Source: a virus
Reading direction: 5' to 3' (one strand)
IMG/VR virus record: IMGVR_UViG_3300032291_003737
Location: 1-35,369 of that record
DNA length: 35,369 nt
The notes below the pieces were generated by a model that saw only the letters and a program-made list of their open reading frames with translations, did no database searches and was not told the origin of the DNA. Position numbers and translations under genes: made by a program. This document shows positions 8,422 through 11,900 of this stretch, in pieces; the stretch's first letter is position 1; each line of letters starts with the position of its first letter.

Positions 8422-8769
8422 TTATGTCCTATCAAAAAATTCATTGAATGTGTTTTTAATTGGATGAAAGTATCTTCGTTCTTCGATAGCTTGATCCAAA
8501 ATTTTGACCAATCGATTGGCTGAATGACTCTTTAATTTACACCATTTGATTTGTTCCCGTAGCCAAGTCAGTGTGTTATTATCAGCACTGGTCATGATGA
8601 ATTCATTTGCGTCCATTTGATCTACCAACTTCTGCATGTAGGCCTGAAACCCATCGATGCTGCTTGGTGTCTTGAGTCGTTTCATTTTTTCGGTCACAAC
8701 TTCTATCATTACTTCTTCAAGTAAGGCTAATTCTTCTGCTTCAAAACTAAACTTTAATTTACTGGTCAT
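8422..8769 (-). CDS. Helical hypothetical protein (115 aa)
   Basis: A charged, alpha-helical protein (EELALLEEVMIEVVTEKMKR; KWCKLKSHSANRLVKILDQA) with probable coiled-coil segments. A GAGGAA ribosome site sits 8 nt before the ATG at 8769, and an ATAAATA promoter-like motif 22 nt upstream. It is the first gene of a three-gene minus-strand unit (8769-7916), directly downstream of the long non-coding region. No family is recognised. Confidence 0.75.
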   Translation of the reverse strand: MTSKLKFSFEAEELALLEEVMIEVVTEKMKRLKTPSSIDGFQAYMQKLVDQMDANEFIMTSADNNTLTWLREQIKWCKLKSHSANRLVKILDQAIEERRYFHPIKNTFNEFFDRT

Positions 8770-8791: not shown

Positions 8792-8798
8792 TATTTAT
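8792..8798 (-). promoter_or_regulatory. Late-promoter-like motif GATAAATA
   Basis: ATAAATA (preceded by G) on the minus strand, 22 nt before the ATG at 8769. It would start the three-gene unit separately from any RNA made from the non-coding region upstream. Confidence 0.5.
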
Positions 8799-8859: not shown

Positions 8860-9590
8860 ATCGCGGTCTATTGAAGTGTATGCTTCGCAAACTCAGCACA
8901 CACGCACTTCGTAGAAACTTCGTTTCCACTCGAGCCATTTAGTAACAAACACAAAAACAAACAAGCAATTAGAACGAAGTGATTTAAGACTGTCCTTGAG
9001 CATAGAATCACGCTAATCAAAGCGCGAATTCTATCAAGGTTCTGTCCCCTCGCTGATTCCAAAAACACAACTTATACCACGCAAGTATAAGTCCGGTAGG
9101 TTTTGCTGTCTCCGTCTTAAGTGCCAATCATAACGCAAGCATTGGAAATTTGGAATTTATTTTGACCCAATGCTTTGTGGGATATCAATTTTCTTCATTG
9201 ATGTGTTGCCCCACTCACTTTTTATCCGATCGTTTTTAACCCAATCAGATCAACCATTACGAATAAGCAAACAATACACGAACATAGGTCGGTTGTTTTA
9301 GGCATCCTCACACAGAGGGTAGTGCTTATAAGATCTTGTAGTGCCAAGAAAGCTACCGTCACACATCAGAACGGATTCACTAACACTTAACTGGGCGTGT
9401 CATTCCACTGCACTAATATTCTCTGGTATCTTAATTTATAAAGCTCAATACCTGTTGACTTGCAATCCGATTAGAGAAATATCGGAATACACCGTGTTCG
9501 CCACCCACGGTGTAAGGTGTCTCAGCTTACAAAGATTTCAACAGGCCATACATTGCGTATGAGACTAATCTTTATTTGCTTGCGTATGTT
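8860..9590 (-). ncRNA. Candidate large structured non-coding RNA
   Basis: About 800 bp without a convincing gene on either strand, but dense in helices: 8994-9039 (nested stem with CCTTG/CAAGG, ATAGAAT/ATTCTAT and CGCT/AGCG); 9070-9092 (ACTTATAC/GTATAAGT, 7-nt loop); 9137-9175 (AAGCATTGG/CCAATGCTT); 9178-9214 (GTGGG/CCCAC enclosing ATCAAT/ATTGAT); 9466-9486 (TCCGAT/ATCGGA); 9488-9514 (TACACCGTG/CACGGTGTA); 8873-8910 and the competing 8905-8912 with 8974-8981. More mismatches become G-U pairs on the minus strand (in the stems at 8873-8910, 8994-9039 and 9137-9175) than on the plus strand (9183/9203, 9305/9319), and an ATAAATA motif lies at 9591-9597, so I favour minus-strand transcription. Ends are approximate. 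Giant phage RNAs such as GOLLD and ROOL are comparable in size, but no family match can be claimed. The alternative is a replication origin. Confidence 0.5.
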
Positions 9591-9700: not shown

Positions 9701-9988
9701 TTATATCTTTTTGGGCCTAGGATTGAATCCGTTGACAATGATTTGCTGTGCTGGATTCAATTCCTCGTTGCGCCAATTTTTACGCATGTCCTGTGCTGCT
9801 GCTGCATGCTGGATATACTCTGGCGTGAATGCGCCCTGAGTGATGTGTCCTTGCAACACCAAATGCACAAACTTCATGATGTCATCTTCACTGAACTTGG
9901 TCTGCATCACTGTGATCAAGTTTTCCAAATGCAACATGCATTCTCTGATCTGTTCTTCGGTTGGTTTTGGTTCGACATTTTTACTCAT
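9701..9988 (-). CDS. Hypothetical protein (95 aa)
   Basis: A soluble, mostly helical 95-aa protein (MSKNVEPKPTEEQIRECMLH...; FSEDDIMKFVHLVLQGHITQ) with a basic end (FNPRPKKI). Its ATG overlaps the 3' end of the HNH-like gene by 8 bases, so it is translationally coupled. A strong terminator follows about 55 nt after the stop. A perfect TATAAATA (minus strand, 9705-9698) overlaps its stop codon. No domain is recognised. Confidence 0.75.
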   Translation of the reverse strand: MSKNVEPKPTEEQIRECMLHLENLITVMQTKFSEDDIMKFVHLVLQGHITQGAFTPEYIQHAAAAQDMRKNWRNEELNPAQQIIVNGFNPRPKKI

Positions 9989-10556
9989 TGGGTTCTTTCA
10001 GTTTGGGCAACCATTTGTATAGCTTGCCGGATTTAATTTCTTTGCAGACCGACTTGGCCTGCCGTAGGGTGATTTGGGCTCGGATGGCAAATTCTCTTTC
10101 ATCGATTCGGTCATGGTAGTAGTCAACAATGTTGTCTAATCCATGAGTGTATTCTTGCTTGCGTGGTCCCACAGCACGCCAACCAATTGGTTTGCCTGAA
10201 CTGGTTTGGCCATGGCTTTTTCGAATGGTGTGTATGTCTCTGGCTGATCCAAACTGTAGGTGTGCGGGGTTGACGCAGCTCATGTTTTGGCAAGTGCGAA
10301 TCACATCCGCGCCTGCGGGTATTGCACCACCTTGAATTTTCAGCATTAATCTATGCACAGTCTGCATGATGCGTTTGTCTGTGGCCAATCTATAGCCGCC
10401 AACCATTCCATAGCCTTGACTGTGCTTGGCACCTGTCCAAATCCAACAACCTTTGGGTCCGGCACTTTGATCAATTTTTGACCAAAGGTAAGTGCTGTTG
10501 TAACCCACATCTGCTGCCACATCCGGAAATGTTTCTGCACTGGTTTTTCTTTTCAT
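9981..10556 (-). CDS. HNH endonuclease-like protein with altered active site (191 aa)
   Basis: Residues about 37-110 follow the zinc-binding HNH pattern seen in phage HNH proteins: CWIWTG (37-42), a GYG...GGYR strand, HR (68-69), a Gly-Gly..IP turn, then C89-x4-C94-VNPAHL. In family members the first catalytic His lies two residues before that Cys (RHxC). Here Arg87 occupies the place, while Asn96 and His99 of NPAHL remain. The C-terminus (about 140-185) resembles a DNA-binding helical unit. It may therefore be a nicking enzyme with changed chemistry, an inactive DNA-binding protein, or an enzyme using another residue. A strong AGGAGA site precedes the ATG; the gene diverges from the GNAT-like gene. 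Confidence 0.75.
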   Translation of the reverse strand: MKRKTSAETFPDVAADVGYNSTYLWSKIDQSAGPKGCWIWTGAKHSQGYGMVGGYRLATDKRIMQTVHRLMLKIQGGAIPAGADVIRTCQNMSCVNPAHLQFGSARDIHTIRKSHGQTSSGKPIGWRAVGPRKQEYTHGLDNIVDYYHDRIDEREFAIRAQITLRQAKSVCKEIKSGKLYKWLPKLKEPNE

Positions 10557-10595
10557 ATTGTCTCCTATTAATATTTATATGTTTTTGTGCCTTTG

Positions 10596-10603
10596 TATAA
10601 ATA
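10596..10603 (+). promoter_or_regulatory. Late-promoter-like motif TATAAATA, plus strand
   Basis: A perfect TATAAATA, 20 nt upstream of the ATG at 10624, in the 67-bp divergent region between the HNH-like and GNAT-like genes. It matches the T4 late promoter core exactly and has the same spacing to the start codon as several minus-strand copies. Confidence 0.6.
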
Positions 10604-10623
10604 AGTATATTACAGGAAATGCA

Positions 10624-11145
10624 ATGAAGGCTTTGGATCGATTCTTACCCAGCACCAGGGACACTTGGACATGGCATCAGGCCCGCATCATGGATGTGCC
10701 CGACATAGTTCACATGGCCCAAACTCATTTTCAAATGGAGATTGAAAATGTGTTCACTCCCGACCCACACATCTATAGTAAAAATGTTGCACTGGCAGTG
10801 GTGGAACAGAGTTTCGATGCCAGTAAGTGCCAACTAATCGTGGCCAGAGATAACCAAACAAAACAACTGCGAGCCTACAGCTGGCTCGCCAGAGGACACT
10901 ATATGGTGTATGCAGCCGAAGAATCTGCCTCGGCCAGCTTTGCACATATGGACATGAGATTACCCCTACGCACTCGCATCACCTTGATGGCTCAAATTCT
11001 ACAACAGTGGCACCTTTGGTGTCAGGTATGGAGCATACCCATATTGATCTCATCTACTATCCGTGAAGATCAACAAGGGTTCATCAATCTACATCAGGCT
11101 GCTGGGTTTGCTGTTAGGGGTAGTATGGCTTGGGTTCGAGTATGA
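10624..11145 (+). CDS. GNAT-like acetyltransferase fold protein (173 aa)
   Basis: The protein begins MKALDRFLPSTRDTWTWHQA and shows features of the GNAT fold: an N-terminal helix pair (DVPDIVHMAQTHFQMEI), strands around QLIVARD and LRAYSWLARG, and a C-terminal ILISSTIREDQQGFINLHQA-AGF segment. That segment resembles the last strand-helix of N-acetyltransferases (cf. F..LH...GF). The canonical acetyl-CoA loop Q/R-x-x-G-x-G/A is not evident, so it may have lost catalysis or bind another partner. An AGGA site precedes the ATG at 10624, with TATAAATA 20 nt upstream. It heads a four-gene plus-strand unit with a GroES-like gene and is ATGA-coupled to the next gene. Target unknown. Confidence 0.65.
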   Translation: MKALDRFLPSTRDTWTWHQARIMDVPDIVHMAQTHFQMEIENVFTPDPHIYSKNVALAVVEQSFDASKCQLIVARDNQTKQLRAYSWLARGHYMVYAAEESASASFAHMDMRLPLRTRITLMAQILQQWHLWCQVWSIPILISSTIREDQQGFINLHQAAGFAVRGSMAWVRV

Positions 11146-11450
11146 GCGGCGCAGGTTTATTTGGTGGTGGCCAAATTGTCAATCCCACTTGCCCCAGTCA
11201 AGTGAATCCGTTGAGTCAGCAGGCCAATCCTTATTTCAACATGGCTGCACAACAGCACCAAAATTGGTTGGGGCAACAGGCCATGCACAATTATTATAAC
11301 CAGGCAGCCATGACCGCGGCCTGGCAACCATCCAAATGGATGTTCGATGGAGTCACCATGGACATCGACCAATTTGCTGATCAAGTGTTCGGAGCTGATA
11401 CTCCGGAAAAAACCATGTTCTTGTTAAAACACAAGAACAACAATAACTAA
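11142..11450 (+). CDS. Gln/Asn/Met-rich hypothetical protein (102 aa)
   Basis: A 102-aa protein beginning MSGAGLFGGGQIVNPTCPSQ, with a central Gln/Asn/Met/Tyr-rich low-complexity stretch and a C-terminal DGVTMDIDQFADQVFGADTP segment ending in a run of Asn. The start at 11142 overlaps the stop of the GNAT-like gene (ATGA). Its composition suggests a virion-associated or partly disordered protein. Position between the GNAT-like and GroES-like genes suggests expression with the folding helper. No family is recognised. Confidence 0.7.
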   Translation: MSGAGLFGGGQIVNPTCPSQVNPLSQQANPYFNMAAQQHQNWLGQQAMHNYYNQAAMTAAWQPSKWMFDGVTMDIDQFADQVFGADTPEKTMFLLKHKNNNN

Positions 11451-11463
11451 CGAAAGAAAAAAG

Positions 11464-11739
11464 ATGACAGATACGAACCTAAAAACCGTGAAATCACGCA
11501 TTATTTGCGTCAAAAAAGAGGCAAAAAAGACTACGGAAAGCGGTATTATTCTCTCCAGCAGCCAGACTAGCGACGAAGACCAATGGGCCACAATCATAGC
11601 AGTTGGACCCGATGTGACCAAGGATATCTCTGTGGGAGATCGTATTGTGCCTGTGTGGAGCACTGTGGGTGTGATTACCCAAGGTCAGGTGCAATACTTT
11701 GTGGTTGATGAGAGCAATGTTTTGTGTGTGTCAAAATGA
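11464..11739 (+). CDS. GroES-like co-chaperonin (91 aa)
   Basis: A 10-kDa chaperonin-type protein, the heptameric lid that closes the GroEL folding chamber. Recognisable elements in order: an N-terminal strand VKSRIICVKK; a mobile-loop region with SGIILSSSQ, corresponding to the GGIxLP contact with GroEL; WATIIAVGPDV corresponding to the VVAVGPG strand; SVGDRIVPVW corresponding to the vGDkVlf turn; and a final strand with VDESNVLCVSK corresponding to the ..DILAV end. Length (91 aa) is normal. Phage co-chaperonins such as T4 gp31 adapt host GroEL to fold the capsid protein; the same role here is inference. The next gene overlaps its stop (ATGA). Confidence 0.9.
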   Translation: MTDTNLKTVKSRIICVKKEAKKTTESGIILSSSQTSDEDQWATIIAVGPDVTKDISVGDRIVPVWSTVGVITQGQVQYFVVDESNVLCVSK

Positions 11740-11900
11740 TACCATTTCGATTACAAAACATTGAGGTAGTGGAAGTGGCTGATCCAGAAAAGATTGAGAT
11801 TTGGATGTTGAGCATCACTGGTGAACGCCTTGAAGGCGGCACCTTTGACAAGGATGCACTGATGAATACTATTGTGGATTTCTACAACGAAAACTATTAA
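11736..11900 (+). CDS. Small acidic hypothetical protein (54 aa)
   Basis: The frame starts MIPFRLQNIEVVEVADPEKI and ends IVDFYNENY, a small acidic protein with a beta-hairpin-like pattern (IEIWMLSITGERLEGGTFD). Its ATG overlaps the stop of the GroES-like gene (ATGA), and its TAA shares the bases TTAA with the stop of the convergent Dps-like gene. Coupling to the co-chaperonin and a clean open frame support it. Function unknown. Confidence 0.75.
   Translation: MIPFRLQNIEVVEVADPEKIEIWMLSITGERLEGGTFDKDALMNTIVDFYNENY

Follow-up and report, generated by a model that had tools for sequence, protein, structure and literature searches.

A probable large structured RNA of freshwater phages, with a core homologous to the Polynucleobacter-1 motif

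What is specified by a long stretch of phage DNA that lacks a convincing gene? The window, i.e., the whole 35,369-nucleotide stretch analysed, is an uncultivated, podovirus-like record of 35.4 kb, whose recognised TerL, portal and major head protein genes are all on the minus strand. Between its minus-strand ORFs 8422-8769 and 9701-9988, ORF inspection gave no convincing gene, the small ORFs inside being of 66 aa (minus strand) and 73 aa (plus strand), and to that extent the sequence-only reading which had singled out this stretch was right. The most likely answer is that it specifies a folded non-protein-coding phage RNA, a diverged and much longer relative of Polynucleobacter-1, a 141-letter RNA motif that has been little studied. 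More fully, the minus strand very probably encodes a noncoding RNA of ~710 nt with a promoter-like motif, a pseudoknotted 5' domain, a Polynucleobacter-1-homologous core, further helices and terminal hairpins.

On the minus strand 9590-8840 folds at -216.7 kcal/mol versus -190.2 (sd 6.9) in 20 shuffles (z -3.86), and the plus strand of the same stretch gives a z of -2.57 (20 shuffles), which is consistent with an earlier argument, from G-U pairs, that the minus strand is favoured. TAAATA occurs 17 times on the minus strand of the whole window versus 4 times on the plus strand. The order along the minus strand is a terminator-like hairpin, TATAAT, ATAAATA, ~710 nt of predicted structure and, near 8798, a second ATAAATA which precedes the next operon; a terminator and ATAAATA ahead of the stretch, and a separate promoter-like motif for the next operon, had all been claimed beforehand and are present. 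The elements at the two ends are:

About 9645-9615, minus strand: intrinsic-terminator-like hairpin then a T-run, ahead of the unit (seen in the sequence; z -3.48 for the fold of 9652-9610)
9611-9606, minus strand: TATAAT (motif scan)
9597-9591, minus strand: ATAAATA promoter-like motif, a putative promoter (motif scan)
8874-8927, minus strand: 3' terminal hairpins, the proposed RNA end, with a predicted 3' terminus (fold of 8940-8868, z -2.92; similarity to sister phage L002 resumes at 8871)

A pattern scan did not list the hairpin at 9645-9615, for which there are the sequence and the separate fold. Transcription of the minus strand would be from the ATAAATA motif, and the best estimate for the RNA unit, its exact ends being predicted, is ~9586 to ~8874.

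Is there reason to regard this as a unit? In the sister phage one segment is replaced as a block:

8871-9589, no strand assigned: segment swapped in L002 (blastn flanks)

The L002 flanks are 86% and 91% identical to the window, up to 8871 and from 9589, and between them are 545 nt without a blastn match to the window that are also structured (fold z -4.37) and likewise lie behind a terminator and ATAAATA. The swap thus spans the very stretch predicted to be transcribed in the window; a unit is suggested, and one that may be transcribed as such. An alternative core is common to L002 (4499-4740), L090, L102 and L104, with 94.6% of cells paired versus 90.9% shuffled, and 6 double changes versus 2.6, in these four sequences. 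Elsewhere in the window, 10556-11897, between an HNH gene and a DNA-binding-protein gene, is ~1.3 kb without a clear minus-strand gene; a plus-strand TTG ORF of 195 aa there has a counterpart of 192 aa in L002, and no Pfam match. Relatives sought by way of the flanking protein 8422-8769 were not found, and BLASTN of the region and three relatives against annotated phage records gave no meaningful match.

Does the RNA belong to one of the families already known? GOLLD and ROOL, suggested beforehand as possible identities, occur in phages and prophages and are large and elaborate (PMC12286853), as is the phage-borne RNA of the window. However, Rfam scans that included the window gave no match to the GOLLD or ROOL models; the HEARO model, whose inclusion had also been proposed, had no match in the same scans. 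HEARO (omega RNA) is similar in being a structured RNA beside an endonuclease gene, but the neighbouring genes here are SegE-type GIY-YIG or HNH. GOLLD and ROOL are often near tRNA islands, whereas the window has no tRNA.

If not one of these, is the predicted folding at least conserved? A check for covariation across relatives had been proposed and, when it was run, compensatory changes were found in both the 5' domain and the core. The 5' domain comprises the following, all on the minus strand:

9451-9561: 5' domain (model R2, covariation, permutation test)
9561-9557/9551-9547: P1, with a CAA loop
9545-9538/9458-9451: P2, a long helix enclosing hairpin P3
9514-9506/9496-9488: P3, a hairpin
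9519-9516 with 9505-9502: proposed pseudoknot (permutation test)

Relatives with P1 (CAA loop) and P2 around P3 were found by a descriptor script. Ten 5' domains aligned poorly with MAFFT, and an alignment of eight relatives (A3), without the window, L100 and L104, was used instead. In A3, 81% of cells are paired versus 66% shuffled, and 14 of the 21 pairs have double changes, i.e., on both sides. R2, the model made from A3 and so without the window, recovers the window at 9563-9467 (25.5 bits, E 3.9e-5, the E-values of our home-built models R1, R2 and R3 being rough), and also matches L197 and L209. On hand-delimited regions, a delimitation that favours the structure, a permutation test put P1, P2 and P3 at p 0.0001 or less, and the pseudoknot at p 0.010 (0.003 without two similar sequences). 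The compensatory changes in 5' domain and core, together with recovery of the window by a model to which it did not contribute, bear out the proposal of a large structured phage RNA, which is well supported. The 5' domain is also in the podovirus loci L090, L095, L102, L104, L109, L136 and L144, mostly with an ORF of 125-202 aa, that inside L090 matching Pfam ExoX-like_C (E 7e-8). In the other podovirus loci carrying the 5' domain, the downstream structured sequence was not recognised by the core model R3.

The core, again on the minus strand, is where the relationship to Polynucleobacter-1 (RF01718) is found:

9263-9401: core part homologous to Polynucleobacter-1 (alignments, models R3/RF01718)
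9401-9397/9386-9382: Pa
9374-9371/9359-9356: Pb
9349-9345/9338-9334: Pc
9329-9324/9268-9263: Pd
9320-9317/9307-9304: Pe
9298-9293/9274-9269: Pf

That motif was tabulated in 2010 for Burkholderiales and fresh water/estuary (PMC2864571), and literature searches on it returned only that survey. RF01718 gives the window 13.7 bits where the curated threshold is 37, so that by score it is outside the family, and L129 at 22.1 bits is also below threshold; these matches are nevertheless full-length, and at corresponding places in the two. A search of genomes with RF01718 gave a chance-level match only. Its consensus pattern led to 38 IMG/VR loci, 37 of them judged genuine, and all ten that were checked from this set were above the Rfam threshold or among the RF01718 matches listed; a final pattern scan gave 50 stretches, with 44 judged genuine.

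With a structure drawn by hand on just the window and L129, all 26 pairs are standard in both, 8 of them with double changes. The model R3 has only these two rows, and the window row has an edited Pf loop: since the native loop was collapsed by MAFFT in the alignment with L129, a 4-nt stand-in, CTGT, took the place of the 18 nt CCGACCTATGTTCGTGTA that separate AAACAA from TTGTTT, and the row is 150 nt versus 164 native. The stem letters counted for window and L129 are native, and so the 26 of 26 and the 8 double changes hold for those pairs. Run on the 37 loci (325 kb), R3 gave 19 rows, the top 17 all on the RF01718 site and on the right strand, with a best E of 4.5e-4 and five at 0.0046 or better. 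One R3 match, L104 16899-17041 (E 0.0033), does not share the strand of the structural genes but lies on the other, and was rejected as spurious. The reverse test, with R1 built from 17 Polynucleobacter-1 loci, was not significant on the window (third-ranked there, with 5.4 bits and E 2).

What then carries the homology? In a MAFFT alignment of 19 of the phage sequences, with the native window row and the structure drawn on L205, 95.8% of cells are paired versus 78.0% shuffled, 16 of the 28 pairs have double, compensatory, changes, and the score is 0.511, compared with 0.173 after shuffling and no more than 0.109 when partners are slid. Two linking loci, L184 and L187, carry the window motif CCGTTCTGATGTGTGACGG and score 68.1 and 44.9 bits with RF01718, i.e., above 37. 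It is because of this alignment and these scores, together with R3, that we regard the window core as homologous to Polynucleobacter-1 by sequence and structure, a conclusion that is well supported; the RNA is outside the present definition of that motif, and longer. The two share the order and strand sense of helices Pa to Pf, and the CACUA[UC]CC...GGA[UC]G anchor. They differ in that RF01718 spans 141 nt, whereas the loci here run on for several hundred, and in that the window adds the 5' domain.

For the 3' half an alignment of nine sequences gives, on the minus strand:

8994-9214: 3' half
9214-9210/9181-9177: Pg
9173-9167/9145-9139: Ph
From 9112: conserved GAGACAGCAAAACCTACC
9092-9085/9077-9070: hairpin
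9039-9034/8999-8994: helix

There 86.7% of cells are paired versus 79.0% shuffled, and 25 of the 68 pairs have double changes versus 14.2 shuffled, a weaker case than that of the other parts because a single alignment served both to predict and to score the structure, and the fit of the window row to it is poor toward the 3' end.

How widely is the core spread? Dozens of uncultivated phages carry it, the contigs ranging in size from a few kb to 231 kb, and there are RF01718 matches in MAGs labelled Polynucleobacter and Comamonas too. Of the 25 records tested, 9 have TerL of the window's kind and the six of 109-231 kb lack it, and so the core occurs in unrelated phages. In a Comamonas MAG (L237) the RF01718 match is near a tRNA and an integrase-like ORF identified by eye, an arrangement that would be compatible with a prophage. 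Downstream of the RNA, small proteins with an FGRYRG-like motif are seen repeatedly (L186, L189, L197, L206, L210, L221).

What the computations show is that pairing is conserved in both 5' domain and core, that there is homology to Polynucleobacter-1 and that the sister phage has the segment replaced as a block. How do other readings fare beside this? The RNA and a neighbouring endonuclease might be one mobile element, with the RNA in a guide or cofactor role like that of HEARO/omega RNA. In most large-phage loci a SegE-type GIY-YIG ORF (Pfam E 1e-33) ends 46-81 nt ahead of the RF01718 anchor, one is just downstream in L185, L191 and L231, an HNH gene is two genes upstream of the RNA in the window, and the block swap in L002 also counts in favour. 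However, many loci with the same core have no adjoining SegE-type ORF and have TAAATA upstream instead. A crude pattern tagged the end of SegE upstream in 15 of the 42 window-type loci with enough upstream sequence, and TAAATA within 285 nt upstream is in none of these versus 21 of the 27 others (mononucleotide shuffles lead one to expect ~10.8 of 42); L196 and L218, whose SegE ORF the tag missed, are likewise without it. With no HEARO match in Rfam either, and homing endonucleases often adjoining unrelated sequence, this reading is improbable.

Might the 5' domain, or the whole stretch, rather be a leader controlling a downstream gene in cis? An ORF does begin just past the 3' strand of P2 in L090, L095, L102, L109, L136 and L144, and a leader role for the 5' domain alone is quite possible in such relatives. 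But there is no such ORF between 5' domain and core in the window, L129 or L197, the next operon of the window has an ATAAATA of its own, and the stretch is very long for a leader, so that as a general explanation it is distinctly unlikely. The sequence-only reading had also allowed for a replication origin, and a gene-less, hairpin-rich stretch could be an origin or packaging site folding as DNA; we consider this very unlikely, as neither direct repeats of 12 nt or more, which would have suggested an origin, nor a clear skew switch was found, fold stability is strand-asymmetric, and there is the arrangement of promoter-like motif and terminator. The large structured RNA would instead act as RNA in its own right, and would move between phages apparently as a block, sometimes with the neighbouring homing-endonuclease gene.

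How it might act is a matter for conjecture. GOLLD and ROOL have been shown by others to form multimers, and a self-contained structural RNA, perhaps a multimer of that type, is our leading, though tentative, guess for its mode of action. It is conceivable, at somewhat less than an even chance, that large phage RNAs of this kind form a widespread, modular class, exchanged as a cassette between unrelated phages and able to carry an ORF between 5' domain and core, and that Polynucleobacter-1 represents no more than the 5' part of their core. The RNA of the window would make a 141-nt orphan motif part of a large phage RNA class, give that motif a testable structure, and enlarge the small set of giant phage RNAs known so far.
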